Shown here: positions 41,235 to 62,171 of the stretch, one piece after another
Position numbering within the stretch: position 1 is the stretch's first letter
Layout of the letters: each line of letters starts with the position of its first letter
Source: Oscillospiraceae bacterium
GTDB taxonomy: Bacteria; Bacillota; Clostridia; Oscillospirales; Oscillospiraceae
NCBI GenBank assembly: GCA_017540565.1
Contig: JAFYAU010000008.1
Span: forward strand, 62,001 to 126,000
Length of the DNA: 64,000 nt
Direction of reading: 5' to 3'
Translations under genes and position numbers: made by a program
Notes under the pieces: model-generated
Told to the model about the DNA's origin: nothing
What the model saw: the letters and a program-made list of their open reading frames with translations, nothing else
Database searches by the model: none

Positions 41235-41388
41235 TGAGGGATTGGAAAAAAAGAACCGATTTCGGTGCGGGGAAAAGAGACGGCGGACGGGAAAAGAATC
41301 CGTTGAAAAAGGAGGGCGGTTGTGGGAAAATGGAACTGCGGCGCAGGGCCGCGGAAGAAATTCGGGAGAACAACGGGGAGGGACCGAC

Positions 41389-43383
41389 ATGTCCGCAAAA
41401 TATCCGCACGTGTACGAGCCGTTCGAGATCCGGGGCGTACTCTTCAAGAACCGCCTGCAGCAGGCGCCTCCGGGCTGCTTTTTCGCCGGGGACGAACGGG
41501 GCTTCGTCACCCAGCGCTTCGTAGATACCTTCCGCCAGTACGCCCGCGGAGGCGTCGCGATCTGCGAAGTGGGCAACTGCAGCATAGACATCACCGAGAG
41601 CAGCGACGAGCCCGGACAGCTCCGGCTCGACGATCCGGACTGCGTGCAGCCCCTGAAGCTGTTTGCGGAGATGTGCGAGGTCTACGGCGCCCACGGCTGC
41701 CTGGAGCTGACGCACAACGGGAAGGACACGGCCCCGGAGAACATCGGCCGGGCGCCTTTCAGCTGCAGCTCCTTCATCACGGCGGCGGAGCGGAACCGCT
41801 CCAGGATCCTGGGAAGGGACCCGGTCCCCACCGAGGAGATGACCGTCGAGCATATCCGCGAGACGGTGGAGAAATACGCGACGGCGGCCGAGTACTGCAA
41901 GAAGGCCGGCCTGAAGATGTGCAACATCCACGGCGCCCACGGGAACCTGATCGCGCAGTTCGCGAGCCCCTATTTCAACAAGAGGACGGACGAGTACGGC
42001 GGGAGTCCGGAGAACCGGGCGCGCTTCGCGTGCGAGATTCTGGACGCGGTCCGGGCCAGGGTCGGGGAGAAGTTCGTGATCGAGTACCGCATCTCCGCGG
42101 ACGAGATCCATCCCGACCAGATGCACCTCGAAGACACCATTGAATTCATCAGATATATCAAGGACAAGATAGACATCCTGCACGTGTCCGCAGGCATCCA
42201 CGATCTGTGGGGCGAGCGGCAGTACATGCGCTATCTGCTGAGCAACTACACGATGGACCGGATGCTGAACGTCGGTTTCGCAGAGGCCATCAAGAAGGCG
42301 TATCCGGACCTGTTCGTCTCCGTGGTCGGAGCCATCAAGGACCCCGCCATGGCGGAGGAGATCATCGCGTCCGGAAAGGCGGACATGGTGGCCATGAACC
42401 GTGCGCTGCACGCCGATTACGACATGCCGAAGAAATACGCCGAGGGGCGGGAGTGGGAGCACATGCCCTGCCTGCGCTGCCAGTGCTTCCGCATGGCCAG
42501 CCCGCACACGGCCAAGCTGTGCTCGGTGAACCCGATGTGGGGACGCTTCGCGGACTATCCGGAAGGCCGCCTGCCGCCTGCCGCCGCAAGGAAAAAGGTG
42601 GCCGTCGTCGGGGGAGGACCCGCCGGCGTGGAGGCGGTCAAGTGGCTGCTGCAGCGCGGCCACGACGTAACGCTGTATGAAAAGAGCGGAAGGATCGGCG
42701 GCCACGTGAACGATGCCTGCGGCGCCCCGTTCAAGAACGACCTGCGGGATTATCTCGCGTACATGCAGGGCTTTGCCGCACGGTGCGGCGCCCGGGTCCT
42801 GCTGAACACCGAGGCGACCCCGGAACTGCTGCAGAAGGAGGGGTACGACGCGGTGATCGTCGCCGTCGGCGCGGATCCCCTGTTCCCGCGGGTGCCCGGC
42901 TGGGACCGCCCGAACGTGTTCTGGGCGCCGGATGCCGAAAACGGCCGCGCCCCCTGCGGGCAGCGCGTCGTGATCATCGGCGGCGCCTCCGTCGGCACGG
43001 AGGCCTCCATCACGCTGGCCATGGAGGGAAAAGACTGCACCGTCGTGGAGATGGCGGAGCAGGTGGACCTTCTGAAGAACGGCTCCGCCGGAGACCTGGA
43101 GCGGATGAGCGAACAGTACGGAGTGAAGCGCATGCTGGGCTGGAAGCTGGAGGAGATCCGGGAGTCGTCCGTGACCGTCCGCTCCGCTGCCACGGGCGAG
43201 ACGAGGGAACTTCCCGCGGATACGGTGCTGATGGCTGTGGGCATGCGGCCGCGGAGGAAGGAAGCCCTGCGCTTCGCGCACGTCTGCCCCGAGACGGCCG
43301 TCTCCATCATCGGGGACGCCAGCCAGTCCGGAGACATCAGGGACGCCGTCTTCCACGCCTTCGAGGCCGTGCGGTTCCTGTGA
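41389..43383 (+). CDS. NADH:flavin oxidoreductase with FAD/NAD domain (FadH/BaiCD-like), copy 2
   Basis: 664 residues from the ATG at 41389 (GGGGAGGG upstream). The barrel has ARGGVAICEVGNCSI, IHGAHGNLIAQFASPYFNKR and VVGAIKD. Cluster Cys lie in CLRCQCFRMASPH and LCSVNP. The C-terminal FAD/NAD part has VAVVGGGPAGVEA and VVIIGGASVGTEAS. In the barrel GAHGNLIAQFASP is closer to the classical 2,4-dienoyl-CoA reductase pattern than GGHGWLITQFMDR of copy 1, so the two probably differ in substrate. Alone on its transcript. Confidence 0.9.
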   Translation: MSAKYPHVYEPFEIRGVLFKNRLQQAPPGCFFAGDERGFVTQRFVDTFRQYARGGVAICEVGNCSIDITESSDEPGQLRLDDPDCVQPLKLFAEMCEVYGAHGCLELTHNGKDTAPENIGRAPFSCSSFITAAERNRSRILGRDPVPTEEMTVEHIRETVEKYATAAEYCKKAGLKMCNIHGAHGNLIAQFASPYFNKRTDEYGGSPENRARFACEILDAVRARVGEKFVIEYRISADEIHPDQMHLEDTIEFIRYIKDKIDILHVSAGIHDLWGERQYMRYLLSNYTMDRMLNVGFAEAIKKAYPDLFVSVVGAIKDPAMAEEIIASGKADMVAMNRALHADYDMPKKYAEGREWEHMPCLRCQCFRMASPHTAKLCSVNPMWGRFADYPEGRLPPAAARKKVAVVGGGPAGVEAVKWLLQRGHDVTLYEKSGRIGGHVNDACGAPFKNDLRDYLAYMQGFAARCGARVLLNTEATPELLQKEGYDAVIVAVGADPLFPRVPGWDRPNVFWAPDAENGRAPCGQRVVIIGGASVGTEASITLAMEGKDCTVVEMAEQVDLLKNGSAGDLERMSEQYGVKRMLGWKLEEIRESSVTVRSAATGETRELPADTVLMAVGMRPRRKEALRFAHVCPETAVSIIGDASQSGDIRDAVFHAFEAVRFL

Positions 43384-43674: not shown

Positions 43675-43744
43675 GATGCCGCCGCAGGGCGGCACCCGGT
43701 GCCGGGACATCCGGACCGGGAATCCAGCGTCCGGGAGAACGATC

Positions 43745-45031
43745 ATGGACAAGGTAATCAGAAAAACGCGTTCCGTCTGCCCCGTCTGTCTCCGGAACCT
43801 TTCCGCGCGGCTGGTCCGGGAGAAGGACGGACGGATCCTGCTGGTCAGGACCTGCCCGGAGCACGGGGGATTCCGCGTCCCCGTCTGGAGGGGGAGGCTG
43901 GATTTCGACCGGTGGACTCTTGGCGCGGAGGAGCTGGCGAAGGATGCCGGCGCGGGCTGTCCGGGAAACTGCGGTCTGTGCGGGGAGCATGAGTCTGAGA
44001 CCTGCTGCATCCTGCTCGAGGTCACGAAACGGTGCAATCTGAGATGCCGGTTCTGCTTTGCCGACGGAGGGTCCGCGGAGGACGATCCGCCGGCGGAGGC
44101 GTGCAGGGAGGCCATAGAGGACATCGCGCGCAGGTGCGGAAAACCGCTGATCCAGTTCTCCGGCGGCGAACCGACGCTGCGCGACGACCTGCCGGACCTG
44201 ATCCGGTTCGCGAAGCAGGCCGGATGCGGCTATACCCAGGTGAATACCAACGGCCTGCGGCTGGCGCGGGACCGGGCCTACGCGGAAAGGCTGGCAGAGG
44301 CGGGGCTGGACATCGTCTTCCTCCAGTTCGACGGAACGCGGGAGGACATCTACGAAAAACTGCGCGGAGCTCCCCTGCTGGAGACGAAGATGCAGGCCGT
44401 CCGGACCTGCGCGGAGCTGCGCATGGGCGTCACGCTCGTGCCGACGGTGGTCCCGGGCGTCAACGACGGCGACCTGGGGAACATCGTGTCGCTGGCGGCG
44501 GGGATGGTCCCGGGGATCCGGGGCGTCCATTTCCAGCCCGTCTCGTATTTCGGGAGATATCCGGAGAGGCCGGAGGACGGAGACCGGTACACGCTGGACC
44601 AGCTGATGGCGGATCTCAGCCTGCAGACGGGCATAGCCGTCGAAAACTTCCTGCCGTCCCGCTGCGACCATCCGCTGTGCGGGTTCCATGCCGGTTTTCT
44701 GGCCGGCCCTGACGGAAGCCTGACGCCCCTCGGTCCCGTCACGCGGGCGGCCCGTTGCCGGGGCAGCGCGGCGGAGAACAGGGAATACATCGCGGGACGC
44801 TGGCGCCGGGCGCCGGAAGGCCCCGCCCCGGAAAGGGAACTGTCGGAAGAAATGGATTTCGACACCTTCTTCCGTCTGGCGCGCCACAGGAGCCTGACGC
44901 TGTCGGCCATGGCCTTCCAGGACGCGGGAAATCTGAACGTCGAGCGGCTGCGCCGATGCAGCCTGCACGTGTACGACCGGGGAAGAATCGTGCCTTTCTG
45001 CGCGAGATATCTCACCGCGGCCGGACAGTAA
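43745..45031 (+). CDS. radical SAM protein, COG1964/TrsS-like
   Basis: 428 residues from the ATG at 43745. The SAM cluster Cys are 97, 101 and 104 (CNLRCRFCF). Before them are two Cys-rich patches, SVCPVCLRN with RTCPEHGGF and then GCPGNCGLCGEHESETCC. This organisation is that of the MJ0619 / COG1964 group (7,8-dihydro-6-hydroxymethylpterin dimethyltransferase and the so-called TrsS proteins). FSGGEPTLRDDLP and VNTNGLRLA are core barrel motifs. The reaction here is unknown; methyl transfer to a pterin or another heterocycle is the nearest precedent. It has its own promoter and is followed by a terminator-like hairpin, so it may be regulated apart from the nitrogenase-like genes. Confidence 0.8.
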   Translation: MDKVIRKTRSVCPVCLRNLSARLVREKDGRILLVRTCPEHGGFRVPVWRGRLDFDRWTLGAEELAKDAGAGCPGNCGLCGEHESETCCILLEVTKRCNLRCRFCFADGGSAEDDPPAEACREAIEDIARRCGKPLIQFSGGEPTLRDDLPDLIRFAKQAGCGYTQVNTNGLRLARDRAYAERLAEAGLDIVFLQFDGTREDIYEKLRGAPLLETKMQAVRTCAELRMGVTLVPTVVPGVNDGDLGNIVSLAAGMVPGIRGVHFQPVSYFGRYPERPEDGDRYTLDQLMADLSLQTGIAVENFLPSRCDHPLCGFHAGFLAGPDGSLTPLGPVTRAARCRGSAAENREYIAGRWRRAPEGPAPERELSEEMDFDTFFRLARHRSLTLSAMAFQDAGNLNVERLRRCSLHVYDRGRIVPFCARYLTAAGQ

Positions 45032-45037
45032 AACAGG

Positions 45038-45082
45038 GAACGCGGGTCCCGGCGCCGCCGGTGCCCGCGTTCTTGACTTTTC
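45038..45082 (+). terminator. terminator-like hairpin before the nitrogenase-like operon
   Basis: GAACGCGGG/CCCGCGTTC stem with an internal CCGGC/GCCGG, followed by TTGACTTTT. Confidence 0.65.
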
Positions 45083-45100
45083 ACCGCATGAAGGTATGAT
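45073..45100 (+). promoter_or_regulatory. promoter of the nitrogenase-like operon
   Basis: TTGACT, 16-nt spacer, TATGAT, overlapping the T-tract of the preceding terminator. It would start a transcript over the NifHD-NifK-cysK-aminotransferase genes. Confidence 0.65.
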
Positions 45101-45133: not shown

Positions 45134-47332
45134 ATGTCATACGAACGGAAGGAGATCGCGATCTACGGCAAGGGGGGCATCGGGAAGTCCACCGTATGCG
45201 CCAACCTGTCCGTGGCCCTGGCGCAGGCCGGACTGCGGGTGCTTCAGATCGGGTGCGATCCCAAGCACGACTCCACCCGCCTCCTGACGGGCGGCAGGAG
45301 CCTGCCCACGGTGCTGGATTATCTGAGAGACGCGCCGGCGGACCGTACCCGGGCCGAGGACATCCTCGGAACGGGCACGCTGGGCATCGGGTGCATCGAG
45401 GCCGGCGGACCGAAGCCCGGCGTGGGCTGCGCCGGACGCGGCATCATATCCGCCTTCGAGTTCCTGGAGAGGGACCGGGTGAAGGAACGCTACGACGCGG
45501 TGCTGTACGACGTGCTCGGCGACGTGGTGTGCGGAGGATTCGCCGTGCCCATCCGCCGGGAGTACGCGAAAGCCATCTTCCTCGTGACGAGCGGGGAGTT
45601 CATGGCCATCAATGCCGCCAACAACATACTCCGGGGCATCAGGAATTTCGACGGCAGCGAGGGGCGCCGTGTGGCGGGGATCCTGTTCAACGCCCGGAGT
45701 CTTCCCGGCGAGGAGGAGCGGGTGGCACGTTTCGCGAAGGCGGCGGGACTGCCCGTCTGCGCGCGGATACCGAAGAGCGAGGCTTTCCCCGCGGCCGAGG
45801 CGAGAGGCTGCACCGTCATGGAGATGGACGAATACCCGTCCGTCCGGCGGATCTTCACGGAACTGGCCGGGAGGATCGCAGGGGAGCTGCCGCTGTACGA
45901 GGCCAGGCCCATGACGGACGAACAGCTGGAGGCCTGCGTCCTGGAGGGACGGGACCCCGGTCAGACGGCGTCCGCCGAACGGGATGTTTCAGATAACGCG
46001 GCCGAGCGTGTGACGGAGAGAACGGCGGCGCAGGCGGAGACGGAACGTCCGGCCTACCGCCCGCCCCTGTACGGGTGCGCCTTCAACGGGGCGGCCACCA
46101 CGGCGATCCACCTGACGGACGCGCTGGTGATCGCCCACAGTCCGAGGTCCTGCGCCTTCTATACCTGGCAGAACATCTCCTCCCCAGGACGGAGGAACCT
46201 GTTCCACCGCGGGATCCTGATGCCCTCGGCACTGAGCCCGAATCTCACGTGCACGGAGATGGGGCAGACGGAGGCCGTGTTCGGCGGGACGGAGAAGCTC
46301 CGCGCGGCCGTGGAGGAGGCGCTGGCGCGCCGCCCGGGCGCCGTGGTGGTGGTCACCTCCTGCGTCAGCGGCATCATCGGGGACGACGCGGCCGGGATCG
46401 AGGCCCTCTCCACGCCGGAGACGCCCGTGATCGTCCTGAAGACGGACGGGGACATCGCAGGGGATTACATGACCGGGATCGAGATGTGCCTGCACGGCCT
46501 GGCCGATAAGATCGTCGACAGAAACACAGACCTCCGTCCCCTGTCAGTAAACCTGATCGGAGAGACGGGAGTCGCCAACGACCTGGATGTGAATTACGGG
46601 ATCGTCAGGGACCTTCTCGGGCAGATGGGGATCTCCGTGAACTGCCGGTTTCTGGGAGGGGCGACGACGGCGGAGGTGAGGAGGCTCCCGGCGGCGCCTC
46701 TGAACATCCTGGCGTCGGACAGCGAGGACAACCGCCGTCTGCGGACGTGGCTCGAACAGACGTACGGGTGCTCCTTTTTCGACGGCTGCCTTCCCGTGGG
46801 ATTCCGGGAGACCAGCCTGTTCCTGGAGCGGATCGGAGATCTGTTCGGCTGCCGGGAAAAGGCGGAGCCGGTCATCCGGGAGGAACGGCGCCGGTACGAG
46901 GCGGAGATCGCGGGACTGAGGCCGCGTCTCGAGGGAAAGAGGATCCTCATGACCACGATCAACGCGAACATGGACTGGCTGATGGACGCCGCGGAGGACG
47001 CCGGCATGGAGTTCGTGTGGGTCGGCGTGCTGAACTATCTGGGTACGGAGCTCTGCGTGTCGTCGCGGCCGGACCGGTGCCCGGTCGAAGAGATCACGGG
47101 AAGGACTTCCGTGGAGGCCAGGGCAGAAGAACTGGCGCCGGATATCCTCCTGTCCAACTATACGTCCTCCGTGTCCGCGGGGGATGCGGTGACGGACGCG
47201 ATCCCCATGGGACGGCAGGTCGGATTCCGGTCCGGGATCCCGGTCCTGCGCCGGTGGGCGCGGCTGCTGGAGGAGAGAAGAGAGGGGGAATGGGTCCGTG
47301 ACCGGGCGCTGTTTGAAAAGTATTACGGCTGA
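45134..47332 (+). CDS. nitrogenase-like NifH-NifD fusion protein
   Basis: 732 residues. Residues 1-255 are a complete NifH/BchL-type Fe protein: P-loop GKGGIGKST and the two intersubunit-cluster Cys, Cys99 (GVGCAGRGII) and Cys133 (DVVCGGFAVPI). Residues about 256-310 form a charged linker. Residues 311-732 are a NifD-like domain with Cys315 (YGCAFNGA), Cys340 (HSPRSCAF) and Cys410 (TSCVSGIIGDD), equivalent to the NifD P-cluster Cys62, 88 and 154. At the FeMo-co Cys275 position there is Ser528 (LNILAS), and I see no His442 equivalent. It is an ATP-driven reductase of the nitrogenase-like group, not a nitrogenase. A one-chain fusion is unusual. Homology is certain; substrate unknown. RBS GGGAGAGAG. 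Confidence 0.93.
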   Translation: MSYERKEIAIYGKGGIGKSTVCANLSVALAQAGLRVLQIGCDPKHDSTRLLTGGRSLPTVLDYLRDAPADRTRAEDILGTGTLGIGCIEAGGPKPGVGCAGRGIISAFEFLERDRVKERYDAVLYDVLGDVVCGGFAVPIRREYAKAIFLVTSGEFMAINAANNILRGIRNFDGSEGRRVAGILFNARSLPGEEERVARFAKAAGLPVCARIPKSEAFPAAEARGCTVMEMDEYPSVRRIFTELAGRIAGELPLYEARPMTDEQLEACVLEGRDPGQTASAERDVSDNAAERVTERTAAQAETERPAYRPPLYGCAFNGAATTAIHLTDALVIAHSPRSCAFYTWQNISSPGRRNLFHRGILMPSALSPNLTCTEMGQTEAVFGGTEKLRAAVEEALARRPGAVVVVTSCVSGIIGDDAAGIEALSTPETPVIVLKTDGDIAGDYMTGIEMCLHGLADKIVDRNTDLRPLSVNLIGETGVANDLDVNYGIVRDLLGQMGISVNCRFLGGATTAEVRRLPAAPLNILASDSEDNRRLRTWLEQTYGCSFFDGCLPVGFRETSLFLERIGDLFGCREKAEPVIREERRRYEAEIAGLRPRLEGKRILMTTINANMDWLMDAAEDAGMEFVWVGVLNYLGTELCVSSRPDRCPVEEITGRTSVEARAEELAPDILLSNYTSSVSAGDAVTDAIPMGRQVGFRSGIPVLRRWARLLEERREGEWVRDRALFEKYYG

Positions 47333-48557
47333 CAGCCTGACCGGCGCCGTCTTCGCACTGGAGGGGATGAGGAACGCCGTGGTACTGCTGAACGGTCCCA
47401 TGGGCTGCCGGTTCTATCACAGCACGACCTCCCGCTTCCTGATGACGCGGCCCCTTCTGAAACTGCCGGCGGGGCAGGACGGGACGCGCGAGCCGGTGGA
47501 CTACAACACGCTCAACGACTGGTTTTTCCGCCAGGAGCGGGTGCCCTGCACCTGCCTGGACGGCTACGATTACGTCTACGGAACGAAGGAGAAGGTGCGA
47601 GAGGCGCTGACGTTCATCCGGGATTCCGTGGATCTGGACCTTCTGGCCATCGTCAACTCGCCCGGAGCCTGCCTCATCGGGGACGACCTGAAGGAGACCG
47701 CGCGGTCGGTGCTCGGCGGCACGCGGACGGTGATGGTCGAATCCCCCGGCCTGTCCAGCACTTTCGAAGAGGGGTGGAGCCGGGCGGCGACGGCGCTTCT
47801 CGAGCAGACGGGGACCGCCCTGTGGCGGGAGCGAATGCCGGAAAAGAGAAAGGGAAAACGGGTGAATCTGCTGGGCCTTTCCGTCTGGCAGCGGTATTTC
47901 GAAGGGGACCTGGCGGAGCTGAAGCGGCTGTTTGCCCTGTGCGGGGCCGAAGTGACCGCCGCGCTGTGCGCGGACTGCTCGGTGGAGGAACTGGCGCGGA
48001 TGCCCGAAGCCGACCTCAACGTGGTGCTGGATCCCGCGGCGGGCACGGAGGCCGCCCGGTATCTGGAGAGAGTCTGCGGAACGCCCTTTGCCGTCTTTCC
48101 GGGGTTCCCGGTCGGGTTCTCGGCGACGGAACGGATGTTCGAAGAGCTCGGGAAGCTGCTGGGGACCTCCTGCGAAGCCCTGCTCGAGGAGAGCGGACGG
48201 GCCCGCGCGCTGGCCTGGTACAAGATCGAACAGGTGTACGCGACGTCGGGCAAGCCCCGCGGCGTGACCTTCTTCGTGGGAGGGAGCGCGGCGCAGAAGC
48301 GGGCCTACGAGTCCTTCCTCACGAAGTATCTGGGGATGGAGCCGTCGGACCCGGAGCGGGCGGAACTGGTCTTCGGGGACGCCAATCTCATCTCCGAGCT
48401 GATGCTGAAGAACCGCCGGTTCTGCGGGATCGAGATCAGCCTGCCCGGCATGGGGTATATCGATCTGGTCCCGAAGACGCATATGGGGATCCGCGGGGCG
48501 CTGTTCCTCATCGAGCAGGTGCTCAACGGGCTGATGTCCCGCCTGCAGGACGAATGA
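47298..48557 (+). CDS. nitrogenase-like NifK/BchB-type subunit
   Basis: 419 residues from a GTG at 47298, overlapping the fusion gene by 35 nt, so translation is coupled; GGGGG 9 nt upstream. [20 protein letters not shown] then PMGC (Cys37) matches the NifK GSQGC95 site. The first P-cluster Cys position is occupied by Asp12 or its neighbour, and at the third site [10 protein letters not shown] has Cys125 shifted three residues. One certain ligand remains, as in DPOR-type NB proteins where BchB gives one residue. [21 protein letters not shown] and [11 protein letters not shown] follow the subunit fold. It pairs with the NifD part of the fusion to form the catalytic core. Confidence 0.9.
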
Positions 48558-48591
48558 TCCGGGTCGGGGAAACGAAAGGAAAGGGTTGCAA

Positions 48592-49521
<930 letters not shown>

Positions 49522-53729: not shown

Positions 53730-53813
53730 CGCATACCTCCTGCAGAAGATGTGTGATTGCAAAAAAAGTGAAAAAACTTCGGGGAAAAGTAACCTTTTGT
53801 GTCAATTCGGTAG

Positions 53814-53844
53814 TTGACTTGTCCACTGGTGGACAGGATACAAT
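53814..53844 (+). promoter_or_regulatory. MerR-type promoter with 19-nt spacer and dyad operator
   Basis: TTGACT, 19-nt spacer, TACAAT. The spacer holds the perfect dyad TGTCCAC-TG-GTGGACA (53820-53835). A 19-nt spacer filled by a palindrome is the hallmark of MerR-activated promoters (compare BmrR). It should drive the secreted protein gene at 53984, with a leader of about 130 nt. Confidence 0.82.
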
Positions 53845-53983
53845 GCATAATGTATTACTTTTATTCAGAAAAGTCAATAAAATAAAGAGGAAGAGGACAG
53901 AGATTCGGCTGTTGAAGGGAGGATCTGCGTACGGCTACCGGGTCGCTATTTATTTGCGGAAAAACAGGAGGTTAGAGAACAAA

Positions 53984-55909
53984 ATGAAGAAAAGAGCGAC
54001 AGCGTTACTGCTGATATTGCTCATGGTCGTCAGCCTGATGCCTGCGTTGGGAGCAGGGGCACTGGCGGCAGGAGAAGAAACATACAAGTTGGCTACAGAG
54101 ATGATAGCAGCTGGCGACAAAGTGATTATCGCTAATAGTAACTCTGGAAGCATCTACATCTACTCAAATGGAGGAGACAGTAATAGTAAGACTGTCCAGG
54201 TTTCCGGCGATAGTGTAACGATTGATCCTACCGGAGTAGAGTTCACAGTTGTAGCACAGGATAATAATGCAATTGCTTTTGAGCAGGATGGCAAATATAT
54301 GTGCTTCAGGTCTGGAAAACTGACAATGGATTCGGATCCTTCATACAGGCCTTGGAAATATGACATAGACACTCATCATTTAACATGTGTAGTTAGTAAC
54401 AGCACATACTATTTGAGATATAGTAGTTCTAGTTCCGCTTTTCAAGGGTCTACAAGCACAGGGAATATTTACTTTTTCGTGAAACAGAATGGCTCTGGTA
54501 GTGATGATCCCATTGCCGTGACTGGAGTTTCGCTGGACAAGACGGAACTGAAGTTGGAAGAGGGGGAAACTGCGACTCTCAAGGCATCAGTATCTCCGGG
54601 CAACGCTACATACAAGGCAGTTAGTTGGAGCAGCGATAAAACAACTGTAGCCACGGTAGATGATAACGGGAAGGTTACAGCTGTTGCGGAAGGCACGGCT
54701 ACCATCACGGTCACGACTGAGGATGGCAACAAGACGGCAACCTGCGCCGTGACTGTGACGAAAGCAACAGAAAAGCCTACCTATCAGCTGGTTGACGAAC
54801 CTGAGGACGGCGGGGAGTATCTGATCGTCAGTTCGAACAGTGCAGGAAGCGCCTATGCGCTGAAGAACCCCGGCGGTACTTCTGCTGGCGCGGCTATGGA
54901 CAGCACATCCGTGACAATCGGAGCTGACGGAATTGTAAAGACCGCCGATACAGATGTCATTTGGACAGTTACGAAAAATGGTGCCGGGTTCAATCTGAAG
55001 AATGGTACAGATACGCTGGAAGGGAAGAGCGGCGACGTAAAAATCTTCAACAGCGTCCAATATGCAGATCGGTACTGGACATATACAGAGAATCAGTTGA
55101 AGCATAATGGGGGAAATAACACCTATATCGTCTATTATGACAATGGGTTTAAGGCAACTTACAACTCATCAACTGAAAAAGTCTACTTCTATGAAAAGGT
55201 CAGCGAAAGCACAGATCCCGTCGCCGTGACTGGAGTTGAACTGGATAAAGGAACCATGGCGCTGACAGTCGGCGGAACCGGAACTCTCACAGCGACGGTT
55301 GCTCCGGAAGATGCCGCGAACAAGAATGTGACCTGGAGCAGCAGCGATACGGCCGTAGCTACAGTAGACAATGGCATAGTCACAGCTGTTGCGGCTGGTA
55401 CAGCCACGATCACGGTAACGACTGAGGACGGAAATAAGACAGCTACCTGTGATGTGACCGTTACTGCCCCGCAGGAAATTGAATCTTCCGTCATCGAACT
55501 GATGAAGCTGAAGAACAATTCCTCTGTCTGGCTGATTCAGGTTGAGGCGGAAGCCGGCAAGGGATTCACATATAAAGGAACTGCCATGGTCTGGTCCTCC
55601 CGTTACGAAGCTTATGTTATCGCCGTTGAAAGCGCAACAAAGCCGGAGCCGGTTGCTGCAGACTTCGCGGCAGCGGGTGACGCTGCGGCAGCTGTCGAAT
55701 ATCCGGCAGCCAATGATGCCAACGGAAGCAAAAAGGTAGATATGGCCGATGTTCAGTACATATACAACCTGTACAGCGGCAAGTATGAGACTCTGGAAGC
55801 TGCCGGAGACGTGACAAAAGTCCTGGGTGCAGATATTAACGGCGACGGTGTGATCGACAGCAAAGACGCAACGCCGATCCTCACCGCCCTCAGAGGGGCT
55901 CAGGCTTAA
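53984..55909 (+). CDS. secreted protein with BIG2 Ig-like domains and C-terminal dockerin-like repeats
   Basis: 641 residues; AGGAGG 12 nt before the ATG. Signal peptide MKKRATALLLILLMVVSL to ALAAG. Two copies of a beta domain (about 33-165 and 265-395) alternate with two Ig-like BIG2 domains: VTGVSLDKTELKLEEGETATL and VTGVELDKGTMALTVGGTGTL, each ending TATITVTTEDGNKTATC. The C-terminus has NDANGSKKVDMADVQYIYN and GADINGDGVIDSKDATPIL, a pair of dockerin-type Ca-binding loops. No enzyme domain is recognised. DNA is clearly AT-richer than its neighbours in the first 1.2 kb. It may be attached to the surface or a cohesin. MerR-type promoter upstream. Confidence 0.85.
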   Translation: MKKRATALLLILLMVVSLMPALGAGALAAGEETYKLATEMIAAGDKVIIANSNSGSIYIYSNGGDSNSKTVQVSGDSVTIDPTGVEFTVVAQDNNAIAFEQDGKYMCFRSGKLTMDSDPSYRPWKYDIDTHHLTCVVSNSTYYLRYSSSSSAFQGSTSTGNIYFFVKQNGSGSDDPIAVTGVSLDKTELKLEEGETATLKASVSPGNATYKAVSWSSDKTTVATVDDNGKVTAVAEGTATITVTTEDGNKTATCAVTVTKATEKPTYQLVDEPEDGGEYLIVSSNSAGSAYALKNPGGTSAGAAMDSTSVTIGADGIVKTADTDVIWTVTKNGAGFNLKNGTDTLEGKSGDVKIFNSVQYADRYWTYTENQLKHNGGNNTYIVYYDNGFKATYNSSTEKVYFYEKVSESTDPVAVTGVELDKGTMALTVGGTGTLTATVAPEDAANKNVTWSSSDTAVATVDNGIVTAVAAGTATITVTTEDGNKTATCDVTVTAPQEIESSVIELMKLKNNSSVWLIQVEAEAGKGFTYKGTAMVWSSRYEAYVIAVESATKPEPVAADFAAAGDAAAAVEYPAANDANGSKKVDMADVQYIYNLYSGKYETLEAAGDVTKVLGADINGDGVIDSKDATPILTALRGAQA

Positions 55910-56005: not shown

Positions 56006-56046
56006 GAAACATACAGATTATCAAATTACCATCTTTGGTATGTTTC
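56006..56046 (+). other. inverted repeat in the leader of the large surface protein gene
   Basis: GAAACATAC (56006-56014) and GTATGTTTC (56038-56046), 9 bp with a 23-nt loop, just before the ribosome binding site GGAGG. The gap 55910-56072 shows a CCGGCCGG-rich inverted repeat but no clear promoter, so the gene may be read from the upstream promoter. Confidence 0.5.
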
Positions 56047-56072
56047 ATAGACTATTGGAGGAAAGAGACTAC

Positions 56073-59000
56073 ATGAAGAAAAGACTTTTATCAGTCCTTC
56101 TGATCCTTGTGCTGCTGTTCAGCCTGGTTCCCGGCACAGCTGTCTTTGCGCAGACTGCTGACGGGAAGCCGGCGGAGATCTCCGTGCCGGCGGAACAGCA
56201 GGCGGAAGGGGACGGTGCCTCCCTGCGGGCGGCGAAGACAAAAACCGTCCTGACGTTCACGTCGGACATCCATAACAGCAGCAACAATACTGCCGCAAAC
56301 CGGCTTGACAAGTGGCTGGATTTTGTCGCCGAAGAATACGGCGGCATCGATGCCATGGGATTCTGCGGTGACATGGGTCAAGCCTCTGGAAGTGGGAGCA
56401 CCTGGTGGGGATACGTTAACAGCGTCATGACGGTCGCCGAGAATGACGTTGACCAGGTAGTGTATACCACCGGCAATCATGAATTCATGAACGGCAGCTT
56501 CACTCCCACGGCAAATGCGCAGACGCGCAAATATATAATAGGTGAAGAGGCAATCAACGCTTCAGACTACCGGATATTCTGTCTGGGCACCGATAACTGG
56601 GACAACTATCGGGATCACTATTCATCCTCCCAGATTTCGGGACTGCGTGATTATCTGAACAGCACGGGCACGGATAAGCCCATAATCATTCTCACTCATT
56701 TTCCGATTCATCACTTTTCCAGCCGGACGACGGACAACGCGGACCAGGTCATCGATGTTCTGAACGCCGCCGCTGATGAGGGGCGGACGATCGTACTGCT
56801 GTGGGGACACAACCACACGATGTCCGATTCCAACTATGACCAGGTGTTCGCACCCGGCTCAAAGGTGGAGTACGCGAGCGGGAAGACCAAGGAGATCAGT
56901 TTCTATCACATGGCGGCCGGGTGCATGAGCGACTCTGAGTACAATAGTGCCAGCGCATCCGTCAAGGGCAAGGGTCTTGTTATCACCATCGACAGCGACA
57001 AAAAGCTGGACTTTGCCTACTATGACGCCAACGGAAACAACGTCACCGAGGACGACAGCGGCAACCCGCCGGACAATCCGGGCGGCGGCGATGATCCCAC
57101 TCCTTCCACCGCCAGCTATTACGAGATCCCCGACGGGGACTACTATATCGAGTCGGACGACCATTACTTCCTGACGACTCAAGCCGGCGATACCTATACG
57201 AACGGCGGCGGCTCGAATCAGGCGGAGTACAACTATGTCGGTCTTAAGGGCGTCGCTGACAGGGAGGCTGGGCAGAAGTGGACGTTCGAGAAGGACGAGG
57301 AAACGGGCGGTTACTACATCTACGTGCCGACCGCGGCCAAAGCCGGTTTCCAGTATCTGAATGCCACCTACGAATCCAACGAATCCGGCGGATATAACGG
57401 GACGCTGAAGGTCGACGAGACTCCGGACATCTGGATCATCGTATCCAACGGGAACGGCGGCCTGATCCTGAAGAGTACCAACGCTTCCAAGACTGCCACG
57501 GAGGACAAGTATCTGTCCCACGGCAACGGAAGCAATTCGGATTCGAATACCTTCACGGTGCGCTCCAACAACAGCAACAACACCGCTACGACGATCGCCT
57601 ACTTTGATGAGACCGGTGCCGAGGTTAAACCGACGGCCGCTGAAGGCGGAGACACCCCGGTCGATCCTACGACAGGCGATACGGTCAGCATCACCCCGAG
57701 CACCAGCAATCCGGAGGAATCGATAAAAATCAACGTCGGGGATACCCTGACCATCAGGGTGACGAACGGTTCTTCGAACAGCGGCTATGATTATACTGCA
57801 ACGCTTAGCAAGAGCGGTATCGCAGAGATTCAGGGAAATGCCACTATCACCATTGCACAAGGCGGCACCGGTACGTTCACCGTGAAAGGCATTGCGGAAG
57901 GCGCTGTCGACATCAACATTCAGAACAACCAGTCCAGCAGTCAGTATGCGAGGAAAGGCGTCATCCACCTGACGGTCGGCGAGGGAGGTTCCACCCCGGT
58001 CGATCCTCCGGCAGGCGATACGGTGACCATCACCCCCAGTACTGACAATCCCGAGGAATCGATCAAGATCAACGTCGGCGATACCCTGACCGTCAACGTG
58101 AAGAACGGTTCTTCCAACAGCGCTTATGATTTCACCGCAACGTCCGGCGACACCGGTATCGCGGCGATTCAGGGCAATGCCACTATCAACATTGCGGCCG
58201 GCGGCACCGGCACAATCACGGTAAAAGGCGTGGCAGCCGGCACCGTCGACATCACCATTCAGAACGAGAATACCTACGGCAGCCAGTACGTAAGAAAAGG
58301 CGTCATCCATCTGACGGTGGCGGACAGCCAGGTGGAGCCTCCCACCCCTGCGGGAGACTTCAGCCTGGAGATCTCCGGTCCCGAGACCGCAGAAGTGAAC
58401 GATGAAGTCGCCTATAAACTGGATCTGTCCAGCGACAACTACGAAAAATTCGCCGCGGCGGACATTACCCTGACCTATGATACGGCCCGCCTGACGGTGA
58501 AGACTCTGCCGACGGGCGCGGAGGATTCCAACGGAACGATCCGCCTGCTCGACTACGGCGAGGACAAGGATGTCGGAAAGGCCATCTACACGTTCACGTT
58601 CACGGCCAAGGCCGACGGCAACGCCACGGTGACCGTGACGAAAGCGGCCTTCCTGCCCGGCGAGCTCGCCGCAACTACCGACATGATCGATGCGACGCTG
58701 ACCGCAGCTTCGATCACGACGGAGATCGGCCATGACTGGGGCGAGGCGGAATGGACCTGGACGGGCAACGACACCGACGGCTATACCGCCGCTACGGTGA
58801 CGTACACCTGCAAGAACGATCCCGACCATATCTATACCGACGCGGCTACCGTGACCAGCCAGACCACACAGCCTACGGCCACGACGGCCGGCAAGACGGT
58901 CTGGACGGCCACGGCCGAGGATCCCAGCGGGAACACCGTCACCGACACCAAGGAAGTGACGCTCCCCGCCACGGGCTATACCTACAAGGATCCCGTATAC

Positions 59001-62000
59001 ACCTGGACAAAGGAAACGGACACCTACAAGGTGACTGCGCTCAAGGAGTGCAACGAGGATTCCGCGCAGAACATCACCGAGACGGTCGACGCAGTCTTCA
59101 GCGTGACCACGGCGGCCACCTGCGAGGCGGCCGGCGCCGGCGTCTGGACGGCGACCTTCACGAACAGTGCGTTCACGGCGCAGAGCAGGGACGAAACGAT
59201 CCCCGCCCTCGGACATGACTGGGGCGCGCCCGTATTCGACTGGGCGGAGGACGGCAGCAGCGTGACGGCTACCCGCACCTGCGCCAACGATGCGGCGCAC
59301 AAAGAGTCCGAGACGGTCCAGACCACGTCCCAGAAGACGAAGGATCCGACCTGCGACCAGAAGGGTGAGACCACCTATACCGCGGTATTCCAGAATGCGG
59401 CCTTCGGAACGCAGACGAAAGTCATCGCGGATATCGACGCCCTCGGACATGACTGGGGCGATGCCACGTACGCGTGGACGGACGGCAATGCCGAGGTCGT
59501 GGCGACCCGGTTCTGCGGAAGGGACAGGACCCATGTGGAGACCGAGATCGCCGAAGCCACGTCCAATGTGACGAAAGAGGCGACCTGCGAAGAAAAGGGA
59601 GAGACGACCTGGACGGCGACCTTCACGAACGAAGCCTTCGTGACCCAGACGAAGACGGAAGCCAACATCCCGGCTCTCGGCCACAGCTGGGGAGAACCCA
59701 CGTATGTGTGGGCAGACGACAACAGCACCGTGACGGCGACCCGCGTGTGCGCCCATGACGCTGAGCACGTGCAGACCGAAGTGGCAGAGACCACGTCCAA
59801 GGTGACGAAGGAAGCGACCTGCGAGATCGCAGGCGAAACAACCTGGACGGCCACGTTCAGGAACGAAGCCTTTACGGCCCAGACGAAGACGGAGGCCAAC
59901 CTGCCCGCCATCGGCCACGACTGGGACGAGCCGACCTACGGATGGTTTGCGGACAACAGCAAGGTAACGGCGGTCCGCGTCTGCAAGAACAACTCCTTAC
60001 ACATCGATATGGAAGTCGCGCAGACCACGGCCGAGGTGACGAAGCCCGCCACCTGCGAGGCCGGCGGCGAGACGACATATACCGCTGTCTTCGAGAACGA
60101 AGCCTTTACGACCCAGACGAAGACGGAAGCCAACCTGGCTCCGCTGGGTCACGAATGGGGAGAGCCCGTCTGGACCTGGGAGGAGGATTACTCCGGCGCG
60201 ACGGCGACCTGGACCTGCGCTCACGACAGCAGCCACGTCCACACGGACGAGGCGACGGTGAAATCCGTGAAGGTGGATCCGACACCCGAGGAGGACGGGA
60301 GCATCACCTACACGGCCACGGCGACAGGACCGGCCGACGAAACGGTCACCGACGTCAAGGTCGTGACGGTCCCGGCTTCCGGCTACACCTATGCGGAGCC
60401 CACCTATGAGTGGCTCGCCATCAGGGATGAAACCGGAAAGGTCATCGGTTACAAAGTCATCGCCGAGAGCGTGTGCAACGAGGACGAGAACAGGAACATC
60501 ACCGAGGTCGCGGAAGCGGTCTACGCCGTAACAGCGGAACCCGGCTGCGAGACCGAGGGCGAAGGGACCTGGACGGCGGCCTTCAAGAACACCGCGTTCA
60601 CGACTCAGACTAAGAAAGAAGCCATCCCCGTTGCCGGCCATGTATGGGGCGAAGCCGCCTACAAGTGGGCCGAGGACAACAGCAGCGTGACTGCGACCCG
60701 CGTGTGCGCCAACGACGCCTCCCACGCGGAGACCGAGACGGCGAAGACGACGGCCGAGATCACGAAGGCGGCGACCTGCGAGGAGGCCGGAGAGACGACC
60801 TACACGGCCGAATTCGAAAATGAAACTTTCGAGAAGCAGACCAAGACGGTCGCGGACGTCCCGGCCATCGGCCATAAGTGGGGAGAGCCGTCCTGGACGT
60901 GGGCAGAGGATTACAGCACCGCAACGGCGACCTTCGTCTGCGGGAACGACGAAACCCACAAGGAGACGGTCGAAGCCGTTATCACCGGACCTGCGGATGC
61001 CGTTTACACGGCCACGGTCACCGGCCCCGACGGCAAGCAGTACACCGACACCTCCGCGGTCTTCGAGCTGACCTACGACGCCAACGGCGGCACCGGAGAG
61101 ATGGAGAAGCAGACCGGAACGGTCCTGGCCGTGAGCGAGAACGCTTTCGTCAACGAGGGCAGCGAGTTCACCGGCTGGAACACGGCGGCCGACGGCAGCG
61201 GCACCGCCTACGCGGCGGGCGACACCGTCACCCTGACGGCGGACCTGACCCTGTACGCGCAGTGGAACCTCCTCGGCCAGAAGCCGGAGTTCCGCTCCCA
61301 GTCCCTGGTCCTGTCCGGGCAGATCGGACTGAACTTCTACCTCAATCTGCCCGCCATCAGCGGCGTGGACTACGAAGAGAGCTACATGGAGTTCACGATC
61401 GGCGGCAAGGGCGGCACCACGACCTACGCCAACTTTGACAGAAACAACACCAACAGCAGCGGCAAGTACTACGGCTTCACCTGCTACGTCAATTCGATCC
61501 AGATGGCCGACGTCATCACGGCGACCTTCCATTACGGAAACGGCCAGACGGTGACGAAGGAATACTCCGTGGCGCAGTACATCAGGTTCTTCGACGAGCA
61601 TGCCGATTCGTTCAACGCCAAGACGATCCGGCTGACGCACGCCATCGCGGACTTCGGTCACTACGCGCAGATCTACCTGTCCTCCATCAACGACTGGACG
61701 ATCGGCAAGGATTACGCGGAGATGAGCCTGTACTATGCCAAGAGCTACGACTTCGAGGCGCTCAAACCCGAGGTGCAGCAGTACGCGTTCGCCAAGGATC
61801 TGGGCAGCTCCAAGGTGACGAAGGCCACCTACAAGCTCCACCTGGATTCCTCCACGACGGTAGACGTGTTCCTGACGGTTCCGAAGGGCACGGCCCTGAC
61901 GGCGTCGACGACCTACGACGGCAAGACGTACAAAGCGGAGCTGCAGAGCGACGGCCGGTATATGATCCGGATCCCGGACATCTCTGCCCACAAGCTGGGC

Positions 62001-62171
62001 GAGACCATCACCATCCGCGGCAACGCCGGCGGCTCCTTCACGGTAGCCGTATCGGCCCTGTCGTACGTGAGATCCGTCCTGAACAACGCGAACGCCGCCG
62101 CAGCAGAGAAGAACGGCCTGGCTGCATTCTACGAATACTACAGAGCGGTTCAGAACTATCGCGGGCAGTAA
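56073..62171 (+). CDS. giant secreted metallophosphoesterase surface protein with tandem repeats
   Basis: 2032 residues; GGAGG before the ATG at 56073. Signal peptide MKKRLLSVLLILVLLFSLVP to VFA. A calcineurin-like metallophosphoesterase domain spans about 57-330: TSDIHNSS (Asp65, His67), GDMG (Asp100), TGNHEF (Asn135, His136), LTHFPIHHF and LWGHNHT. It is followed by a beta domain, two tandem Ig-like repeats (113 residues each, about 536-750), a cohesin-like domain (SLEISGPETAEVNDEVAYKL), about ten 75-residue repeats, one Listeria-Bacteroides (InlB) repeat (LTYDANGGTGE to TLYAQW) and a C-terminal domain of about 300 residues. There is no LPXTG. It may degrade extracellular phosphoesters while bound to the surface. 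Confidence 0.88.
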   Translation: MKKRLLSVLLILVLLFSLVPGTAVFAQTADGKPAEISVPAEQQAEGDGASLRAAKTKTVLTFTSDIHNSSNNTAANRLDKWLDFVAEEYGGIDAMGFCGDMGQASGSGSTWWGYVNSVMTVAENDVDQVVYTTGNHEFMNGSFTPTANAQTRKYIIGEEAINASDYRIFCLGTDNWDNYRDHYSSSQISGLRDYLNSTGTDKPIIILTHFPIHHFSSRTTDNADQVIDVLNAAADEGRTIVLLWGHNHTMSDSNYDQVFAPGSKVEYASGKTKEISFYHMAAGCMSDSEYNSASASVKGKGLVITIDSDKKLDFAYYDANGNNVTEDDSGNPPDNPGGGDDPTPSTASYYEIPDGDYYIESDDHYFLTTQAGDTYTNGGGSNQAEYNYVGLKGVADREAGQKWTFEKDEETGGYYIYVPTAAKAGFQYLNATYESNESGGYNGTLKVDETPDIWIIVSNGNGGLILKSTNASKTATEDKYLSHGNGSNSDSNTFTVRSNNSNNTATTIAYFDETGAEVKPTAAEGGDTPVDPTTGDTVSITPSTSNPEESIKINVGDTLTIRVTNGSSNSGYDYTATLSKSGIAEIQGNATITIAQGGTGTFTVKGIAEGAVDINIQNNQSSSQYARKGVIHLTVGEGGSTPVDPPAGDTVTITPSTDNPEESIKINVGDTLTVNVKNGSSNSAYDFTATSGDTGIAAIQGNATINIAAGGTGTITVKGVAAGTVDITIQNENTYGSQYVRKGVIHLTVADSQVEPPTPAGDFSLEISGPETAEVNDEVAYKLDLSSDNYEKFAAADITLTYDTARLTVKTLPTGAEDSNGTIRLLDYGEDKDVGKAIYTFTFTAKADGNATVTVTKAAFLPGELAATTDMIDATLTAASITTEIGHDWGEAEWTWTGNDTDGYTAATVTYTCKNDPDHIYTDAATVTSQTTQPTATTAGKTVWTATAEDPSGNTVTDTKEVTLPATGYTYKDPVYTWTKETDTYKVTALKECNEDSAQNITETVDAVFSVTTAATCEAAGAGVWTATFTNSAFTAQSRDETIPALGHDWGAPVFDWAEDGSSVTATRTCANDAAHKESETVQTTSQKTKDPTCDQKGETTYTAVFQNAAFGTQTKVIADIDALGHDWGDATYAWTDGNAEVVATRFCGRDRTHVETEIAEATSNVTKEATCEEKGETTWTATFTNEAFVTQTKTEANIPALGHSWGEPTYVWADDNSTVTATRVCAHDAEHVQTEVAETTSKVTKEATCEIAGETTWTATFRNEAFTAQTKTEANLPAIGHDWDEPTYGWFADNSKVTAVRVCKNNSLHIDMEVAQTTAEVTKPATCEAGGETTYTAVFENEAFTTQTKTEANLAPLGHEWGEPVWTWEEDYSGATATWTCAHDSSHVHTDEATVKSVKVDPTPEEDGSITYTATATGPADETVTDVKVVTVPASGYTYAEPTYEWLAIRDETGKVIGYKVIAESVCNEDENRNITEVAEAVYAVTAEPGCETEGEGTWTAAFKNTAFTTQTKKEAIPVAGHVWGEAAYKWAEDNSSVTATRVCANDASHAETETAKTTAEITKAATCEEAGETTYTAEFENETFEKQTKTVADVPAIGHKWGEPSWTWAEDYSTATATFVCGNDETHKETVEAVITGPADAVYTATVTGPDGKQYTDTSAVFELTYDANGGTGEMEKQTGTVLAVSENAFVNEGSEFTGWNTAADGSGTAYAAGDTVTLTADLTLYAQWNLLGQKPEFRSQSLVLSGQIGLNFYLNLPAISGVDYEESYMEFTIGGKGGTTTYANFDRNNTNSSGKYYGFTCYVNSIQMADVITATFHYGNGQTVTKEYSVAQYIRFFDEHADSFNAKTIRLTHAIADFGHYAQIYLSSINDWTIGKDYAEMSLYYAKSYDFEALKPEVQQYAFAKDLGSSKVTKATYKLHLDSSTTVDVFLTVPKGTALTASTTYDGKTYKAELQSDGRYMIRIPDISAHKLGETITIRGNAGGSFTVAVSALSYVRSVLNNANAAAAEKNGLAAFYEYYRAVQNYRGQ
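57678..58325 (+). repeat. two tandem 339-nt repeats (Ig-like domains) in the surface protein gene
   Basis: The segment starting GATACGGTCAGCATC recurs 339 nt later as GATACGGTGACCATC. Each encodes a 113-residue unit beginning DTVSITPSTSNPEESIKIN or DTVTITPSTDNPEESIKIN and ending near GVIHLTV. Confidence 0.85.
58728..61062 (+). repeat. about ten tandem repeats of roughly 75 codons in the surface protein gene
   Basis: Units start with GHDWGEPTY-like motifs (eight of type GHxW, two of type GYTY) and follow the pattern WADDNSTVTATRVC, xCE, GETTWTATF, NEAF then TQTKTEA. The paired Cys of each unit could form disulfides. Units are diverged in DNA but clearly homologous, giving material for slippage and length variation. 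Confidence 0.85.

Follow-up and report, generated by a model that had tools for sequence, protein, structure and literature searches.

A conserved nitrogenase-like reductase of Clostridia with its Fe protein fused to a catalytic subunit, and its possible place in cobalamin metabolism

What kind of enzyme results when the Fe protein of a nitrogenase-type reductase is covalently joined to a catalytic subunit, and what might such an enzyme reduce? The question is raised by a 64,000-nucleotide stretch of DNA from an Oscillospiraceae bacterium (contig JAFYAU010000008.1, positions 62,001 to 126,000; “the window” in what follows). In this window, one gene, HD, encodes a NifH-like Fe protein and an alpha-type component-1 subunit as a single polypeptide, and the next gene, K, encodes a partner subunit; we refer to the two-gene system as HDK. 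In the characterised systems of this type, the Fe protein and the catalytic subunits are separate, as an initial annotation of this DNA correctly pointed out. The locus is laid out as follows.

45134..47332, plus strand: HD, fused Fe protein (NifH-like) and alpha-type component-1 subunit (NifD/NifE-like), one uninterrupted open frame of 732 codons (732 amino acids)
45152..45946, plus strand: Fe-protein domain of HD, amino acids 7-271, with the P-loop GKGGIGKS and the [4Fe-4S] cysteines C99 and C133
45947..46066, plus strand: linker of HD, amino acids 272-311, predicted to be disordered, rich in Ala, Glu and Pro, of varying length within the family
46067..47329, plus strand: D domain of HD, amino acids 312-732, with three invariant cysteines at P-cluster-type positions
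47298..48557, plus strand: K, NifK/BchB-like partner subunit of 419 amino acids with a GTG start (PF00148, E 4e-45)
47298..47332, plus strand: overlap of HD and K

The open frame of HD holds a complete Fe-protein domain of the NifH type (Fer4_NifH, PF00142, residues 7-269, E 9e-87) and a complete component-1 domain (Oxidored_nitro, PF00148, residues 315-712, E 4e-66), which agrees with the initial annotation in its reading of a single 732-residue protein and of a nitrogenase-like enzyme with a covalent Fe protein. This two-domain layout is kept across 39 aligned sequences, and residues K13, K18, C99 and C133 are invariant in all of them (39/39). The predicted structure of the Fe-protein domain matches the Azotobacter vinelandii Fe protein with a Z score of 34 (VIA-align), and Fe proteins generally at about 34. 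For the D domain, the best profile score is that of NifE, and its model reaches Z of about 24 to MarD, NifD, NifE and BchB alike (VIA-align), a tie from which no closest relative among the four can be separated. The label “NifD” is therefore loose, since NifE scores best and the cysteine that binds the FeMo-cofactor is absent. The predicted model of K, in turn, finds its best match in BchB, with a Z score of 32 across its whole length.

Between the two domains of HD lies a linker of about 36-41 residues, shorter than the 55 residues first assigned to it, and predicted to be disordered (pLDDT of about 32 around residues 277-312). Across the family, its length ranges from 36 to 92 residues, with a median of about 43. 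In locus L057 (related loci are designated by L numbers and genomes by G numbers), an 18-nt tandem repeat lies inside the linker at L057:5400-5470, and the frame break of this locus falls in the same linker; linker length may vary through repeat slippage. Downstream, HD and K overlap by exactly 35 nt, as the initial annotation had it, and of the 40 related loci with an identified K gene, 32 have an overlap of identical length, which suggests translational coupling.

The reality of the fusion was assessed in a scan of relatives, taking one genome per species among named records, which yielded 42 related loci; genes in the GC-rich loci were called with a codon-trained caller. Both domains are in one frame in 35 of the 42. 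Within the same taxonomic family, five further genomes carry the full-length fusion, for three genera in all, and more divergent carriers occur in other families of the class and the phylum, some of them in genomes of one to three contigs. The carriers include Lachnospiraceae and Oscillospiraceae of rumen and gut as well as the cultured Acetitomaculum ruminis DSM 5522. Among the loci without a single frame, two run off the end of a contig, one is interrupted by an N gap where D begins, and L063 carries two indels, one in the Fe-protein domain and one in K. The remaining argument for an assembly or sequencing artefact that joined two separate genes comes from L053 and L057, in which the two domains lie in different frames. 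However, in both loci the indel falls in the linker and D has no separate start, so that they look like single indels. Because the fusion stands in one frame across so many relatives, in several families, we reject the frameshift artefact and consider its probability practically negligible.

In a search of the class, the D profile separates the carriers (at least 344 bits) from everything else, which scores at most 120 bits and consists of unfused frames of the usual length. When 39 fused and 14 unfused Fe-protein domains are placed in a maximum-likelihood tree, the fused ones fall into one group with support of 100/99. As far as the sampled sequences go, this grouping fits a fusion that arose once. 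Viral contigs gave no HDK-related sequence, and plasmids gave only matches of <60% identity, the best of which are ordinary nif genes. Two relatives of the window's organism carry unfused NifH-like genes with in-frame TAA stops (G105:C82:9548-10444 and G079:C100:2745-3509), perhaps pseudogenes.

To which class of enzyme does HDK belong? It has a NifH-type Fe protein, both D and K carry PF00148, and the predicted folds match, which places it in the nitrogenase superfamily (group IV). In the family alignment, the invariant cysteines are those at positions 41, 87, 99 and 133 of H, 315, 340 and 410 of D, and 37 of K, with no others. The three in D align to the P-cluster-type cysteines of NifE and NifD in HMM alignments to solved proteins, and C37 of K aligns to residue 36 of BchB (HMMER against 3aet_B, an alignment that in that stretch alone is not significant). 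In DPOR (BchL/BchN/BchB), residue 36 of BchB is an aspartate and a ligand of the single [4Fe-4S] cluster. By alignment, the invariant cysteines of D and K thus appear to match this single [4Fe-4S] site, a correspondence that we regard as well supported. A P-cluster would call for six cysteines, three per subunit, whereas three are invariant in D and one in K.

The cysteine ligand of the FeMo-cofactor is likewise missing. At the position of Cys275 (residue 528 in the window), the family has Ser, Ala, Tyr, Val, Thr or Asn, and Cys is not among the common residues. Sequence alignments end before the region of His442; around residue 698 the window protein reads RQVGFRSG, without a histidine. Moreover, NifB was not found above its cut-off in any of the 32 carrier genomes searched (a few of them counted twice). 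Since the Cys275 position is not cysteine and no NifB exceeds the cut-off, HDK is very unlikely to fix nitrogen; to judge from the same residues and genomes, it is probably not a methylthio-alkane reductase either, and is probably an enzyme of DPOR or CfbCD construction. One carrier, G573 (locus L055), is alone in having a strong, if partial, NifB-like match (C104:34780-35565, 225 bits against a cut-off of 344), and this genome may hold a second, unrelated nitrogenase-like system.

Comparison with the known systems sets HDK apart from each of them. As in DPOR, an Fe protein works with two related subunits, and the 3 + 1 set of ligand positions for a [4Fe-4S] cluster, spread over two subunits, recurs in the invariant cysteines of D and K. 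In contrast, BchL is separate whereas the HDK Fe protein is fused, BchB has Asp36 (a DPOR ligand mentioned in PMC3464626) where K has Cys37, and the carriers of HDK are fermentative Clostridia. The scores also fall short of DPOR equivalogs: 64 bits for K against a BchB cut-off of 490, and 198 for H against a BchL cut-off of 345. The likeness to CfbCD lies in the Fe-protein domain, which scores 289.6 bits with CfbC, nearly the 292.8 bits that it reaches with NifH, and in a role in a cobalamin-related tetrapyrrole pathway, which for HDK is only suspected. CfbC is a separate protein and CfbD is a single type of component-1 subunit (PMC3464626; PMC7242693, a review in which CfbCD is treated), whereas in HDK the component-1 subunits are of two kinds and the Fe protein is fused; again, the cut-offs for CfbC (402) and CfbD (TIGR03282, 27 bits against 268) lie well above the scores of HDK. 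MarHDK is likewise a nitrogenase-like group IV system, whose chains match the K and D profiles of HDK. Its Fe protein is separate, however, and, according to PMC12552129, Mar enzymes use nitrogenase metalloclusters, whereas HDK carriers lack the equivalent of the metallocluster residue Cys275 and a NifB above the cut-off. With Mo-nitrogenase (NifHDK), HDK shares an Fe protein that is 40-45% identical and a D domain that aligns with NifD and NifE; the differences are the missing FeMo-cofactor cysteine, the missing NifB and the fusion of H.

The closest precedent is the fused NifHD/E described by Dos Santos et al. in 2012 (PMC3464626), with the same layout of nifH and a nifE-like gene in one frame followed by a nifN-like gene; these fusions, which we liken to HDK by their described layout alone, include archaeal and deltaproteobacterial cases. 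The paper mentions them as “data not shown”, removes them before tree building, and assigns them neither a function nor cluster ligands, distribution or gene context. Contrary to what the initial annotation implied, therefore, the fused architecture was already on record, although it is uncharacterised: literature searches on NifH-NifD fusions yielded nothing but an archaeal genomics paper, and no study of the fused family came to light. As far as the literature was searched, what is new here is the family, its cluster ligands, its distribution in one clade, the conserved overlap and an association with B12. Dos Santos et al. also raised the possibility that cobalamin is reduced by separate NflHD proteins whose genes adjoin one for cobyrinic acid diamide synthase (PMC3464626). 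A search for nitrogenase-like corrinoid reductases gave nothing specific. NflHD-type proteins of methanogens were later shown to make F430, as CfbCD.

The association with B12 appears first at the level of genomes. Using CbiJ as a marker of de novo corrin synthesis, we found it in 29 of 30 HDK carriers, against 74 of 283 genomes of the class (26%). Within the window's own family, 70 of 200 genomes have CbiJ, with 6 of 6 carriers and 64 of 194 non-carriers (Fisher p 0.0016, from genome counts that are not independent). With families as the unit, CbiJ is present in 6 of the 7 that include carriers, which gives p 0.009 at a background of 0.35 and 0.06 at a background of 0.5. A CbiF-like methyltransferase is likewise present in 29 of 30 carriers, B12-binding domains are present in 28 of 30, and the one-contig genome of carrier G954 encodes identifiable enzymes for the greater part of the anaerobic pathway together with an adenosyltransferase.

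Some gene neighbourhoods point in the same direction. In L045, CbiG begins 26 nt after K, and HemL, CbiF, HemA-CbiH, HemC, CobS and CobT run in the opposite direction; a cobalamin riboswitch is also present. In L117, from a nearly closed genome, a cobalamin riboswitch stands first in the operon that contains HDK, followed by two genes of ECF transporter type, an SLH/alpha-toroid protein, a DUF4430 protein, HD, K and an ECF substrate-binding component; everything lies on the same strand, and the genes are at most 19 nt apart. L120 has a cobalamin riboswitch and, by eye, a DUF4430-like gene 2 kb downstream of HDK. These individual B12-type neighbours are suggestive. Other neighbours include a Cys-rich small protein (PF04071) directly 5' of HD in L114 and L115, and, in L119, a DUF3786 gene (L119:5824-6429) that overlaps the start of HD and a CobW-family GTPase after K.

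Altogether, we propose that HDK is a distinct reductase of nitrogenase-like (group IV) type, encoded by two genes, driven by ATP and carrying a tethered Fe protein, and that its likely substrate is a tetrapyrrole of the cobalamin pathway; we put the probability of this reading at about one half. Its parts differ in strength. That HDK is a real, conserved and uncharacterised variant of the nitrogenase-like enzymes, with the architecture and cluster type given above, is well supported. The tetrapyrrole or corrinoid role, which draws on the carrier genomes and some gene neighbours, is moderately supported.

Several observations weigh against a place in the cobalamin pathway. Most HDK loci have no nearby B12 gene, and the neighbours are otherwise not conserved; among about 40 loci, HD has no conserved operon partner beyond K. 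Cobalamin riboswitches were found near HDK in only three loci (L045, L117 and L120) of the window and about 40 loci searched, and by our own estimate three riboswitches per ~0.6 Mb of flanking DNA might be near the chance level for B12-making genomes. Four loci, the window among them, have a cysteine synthase near HDK, and four have a sulfite-reductase-like gene there. The CbiJ association is weak when counted by genus within the window's own family (p 0.10), and CbiJ occurs commonly in some of the families that include carriers. A single carrier of the 30 lacks CbiJ, namely G1156, the genome of locus L119, and it lacks a CbiF-like gene as well. Nor does HDK stand in for CbiJ (precorrin-6A reductase), a role considered because DPOR chemistry would fit it: this candidate is ruled out because CbiJ itself is present in the other carriers. 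Finally, a free flavin or flavodoxin may be sufficient for Co(II) reduction.

How might a tethered Fe protein work on such a substrate? Two HD and two K chains would form an (HD)2K2 tetramer, although larger assemblies are possible. With H and D at 1:1 in one chain, as against 2:1 for an Fe-protein dimer per catalytic half, each tetramer would therefore have a single H2 dimer, an Fe-protein dimer formed by pairing of its two tethered H domains and able to serve only one half at a time. The different mode of electron delivery proposed in the initial annotation is, on this 1:1 ratio, a reasonable deduction rather than a demonstrated property. Driven by ATP hydrolysis, electrons from ferredoxin would pass to the H cluster, on to the [4Fe-4S] cluster of D and K, and from there to the substrate, which would be bound as protochlorophyllide is in DPOR. 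The simplest candidate is a step that synthesis and uptake share: a Co(II) corrinoid would be taken to Co(I) ahead of its adenosylation. Such a shared step would explain why HDK occurs both in an uptake-type operon (L117) and beside a synthesis cluster (L045). For this reduction, a review names no dedicated enzyme and apparently leaves it to free flavin (PMC7242693). HDK is possibly a Co(II)-to-Co(I) corrinoid reductase, which is a testable proposal. In its full form, namely a self-contained cob(II)-corrinoid reductase that spends ATP to supply adenosylation with Co(I), both when B12 is made anaerobically and when it is salvaged, with the tether enforcing delivery to one half at a time, the proposal is advanced tentatively.

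Further genes and signals lie around HDK in the window.

43676..45031, plus strand: radical SAM protein of the TrsS family (NCBIfam NF045646, 498 bits, cut-off 490), upstream of HD
45073..45100, plus strand: sigma-70-like promoter match, 34 nt 5' of the HD start (weak: 1 found against 0.3 expected)
48586..49521, plus strand: cysteine synthase CysK, 29 nt 3' of K (NCBIfam TIGR01139, above cut-off)

The promoter match weakly suggests that HDK could be a transcription unit of its own. No cobalamin riboswitch was found in the window when sought. The order K-cysK recurs in the nearest relative, L027, and cysK is also near HDK in L049 and L054; because these four loci are the only ones, CysK is probably merely a local neighbour. 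No TrsS homologue is clustered with HDK in other loci, so it is not a conserved partner either; its NCBIfam family also has selenocysteine members, and the gene stands alone, without an obvious trs cluster. Farther away, 41365-43383 encodes an Old-yellow-enzyme/Fe-S flavoenzyme that resembles BaiCD and the long form of bilirubin reductase, at scores far under their cut-offs. Two large genes lie at 53753-55909 and 56040-62171; judged by eye, the product of the former looks secreted, with Ig-like repeats and a C-terminal dockerin-like repeat, which suggests that the organism may have a cellulosome-type surface system.

The main alternative to cobalt reduction is that the macrocycle itself would be reduced: HDK would act, as CfbCD or DPOR does, on a sirohydrochlorin- or corrin-type ring of B12 producers to give an unknown modified tetrapyrrole, leaving the cobalt unreduced. 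The near-equal CfbC and NifH scores of the Fe-protein domain, the resemblance of K to BchB, the sirohydrochlorin-type precursors made by the carriers and the position of HDK beside CbiG in L045 all fit this account. However, no additional unknown tetrapyrrole genes accompany HDK, and the L117 operon looks like one for uptake rather than synthesis; we find the macrocycle reductase doubtful. A different use of the same low-potential electrons would be to hand them to a protein partner instead of a free small molecule, with HDK as a reductive activator of corrinoid proteins or of another metalloenzyme. The B12-binding domains of the carriers would provide such partners, and DUF3786, CobW and metal-binding small proteins adjoin HDK in some loci. 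Yet no methyltransferase or corrinoid protein is consistently adjacent, and HDK associates with genes for the synthesis of B12 as well as for its use, which leaves this explanation unlikely.

The neighbours related to sulfur raise the further alternative that HDK reduces a sulfur compound, like methylthio-alkane reductase, and passes the thiol or sulfide to the neighbouring cysteine synthase. In the window and in L027, cysK immediately follows K, and four Lachnospiraceae-type loci have near HDK a fusion of CoA-disulfide-reductase-like flavoprotein, rhodanese and sulfite-reductase domains (an 867-aa protein at L041:3305-5908), in some cases with a LysR regulator in between. Against this, the published association with sulfhydrylases concerns sequences that retain Cys275 (PMC3464626), which HDK lacks; NifB is absent from the carriers searched, whereas Mar relies on the metalloclusters noted above; and cysK accompanies HDK in so few loci. 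We therefore consider a sulfur-compound reductase rather improbable.

The tethered reductase proposed for the cobalamin pathway matters in two respects. In the accepted picture of nitrogenase-type electron delivery, a separate Fe protein docks, dissociates and docks again; an Fe protein tethered 1:1 to the alpha subunit offers a natural test of whether dissociation is necessary and whether the two halves take turns. Cultured carriers such as A. ruminis DSM 5522 make HDK testable. If HDK does act in the B12 pathway, tetrapyrroles of that pathway would be the third class, after chlorophylls and F430, to be served by nitrogenase-like chemistry. If it is a cob(II)-corrinoid reductase, it would represent a new reaction for the nitrogenase superfamily and would give an enzyme of its own to a step for which free flavin is usually invoked, and it may fill the Co(II)-to-Co(I) step in the anaerobic B12 synthesis of gut and rumen bacteria.

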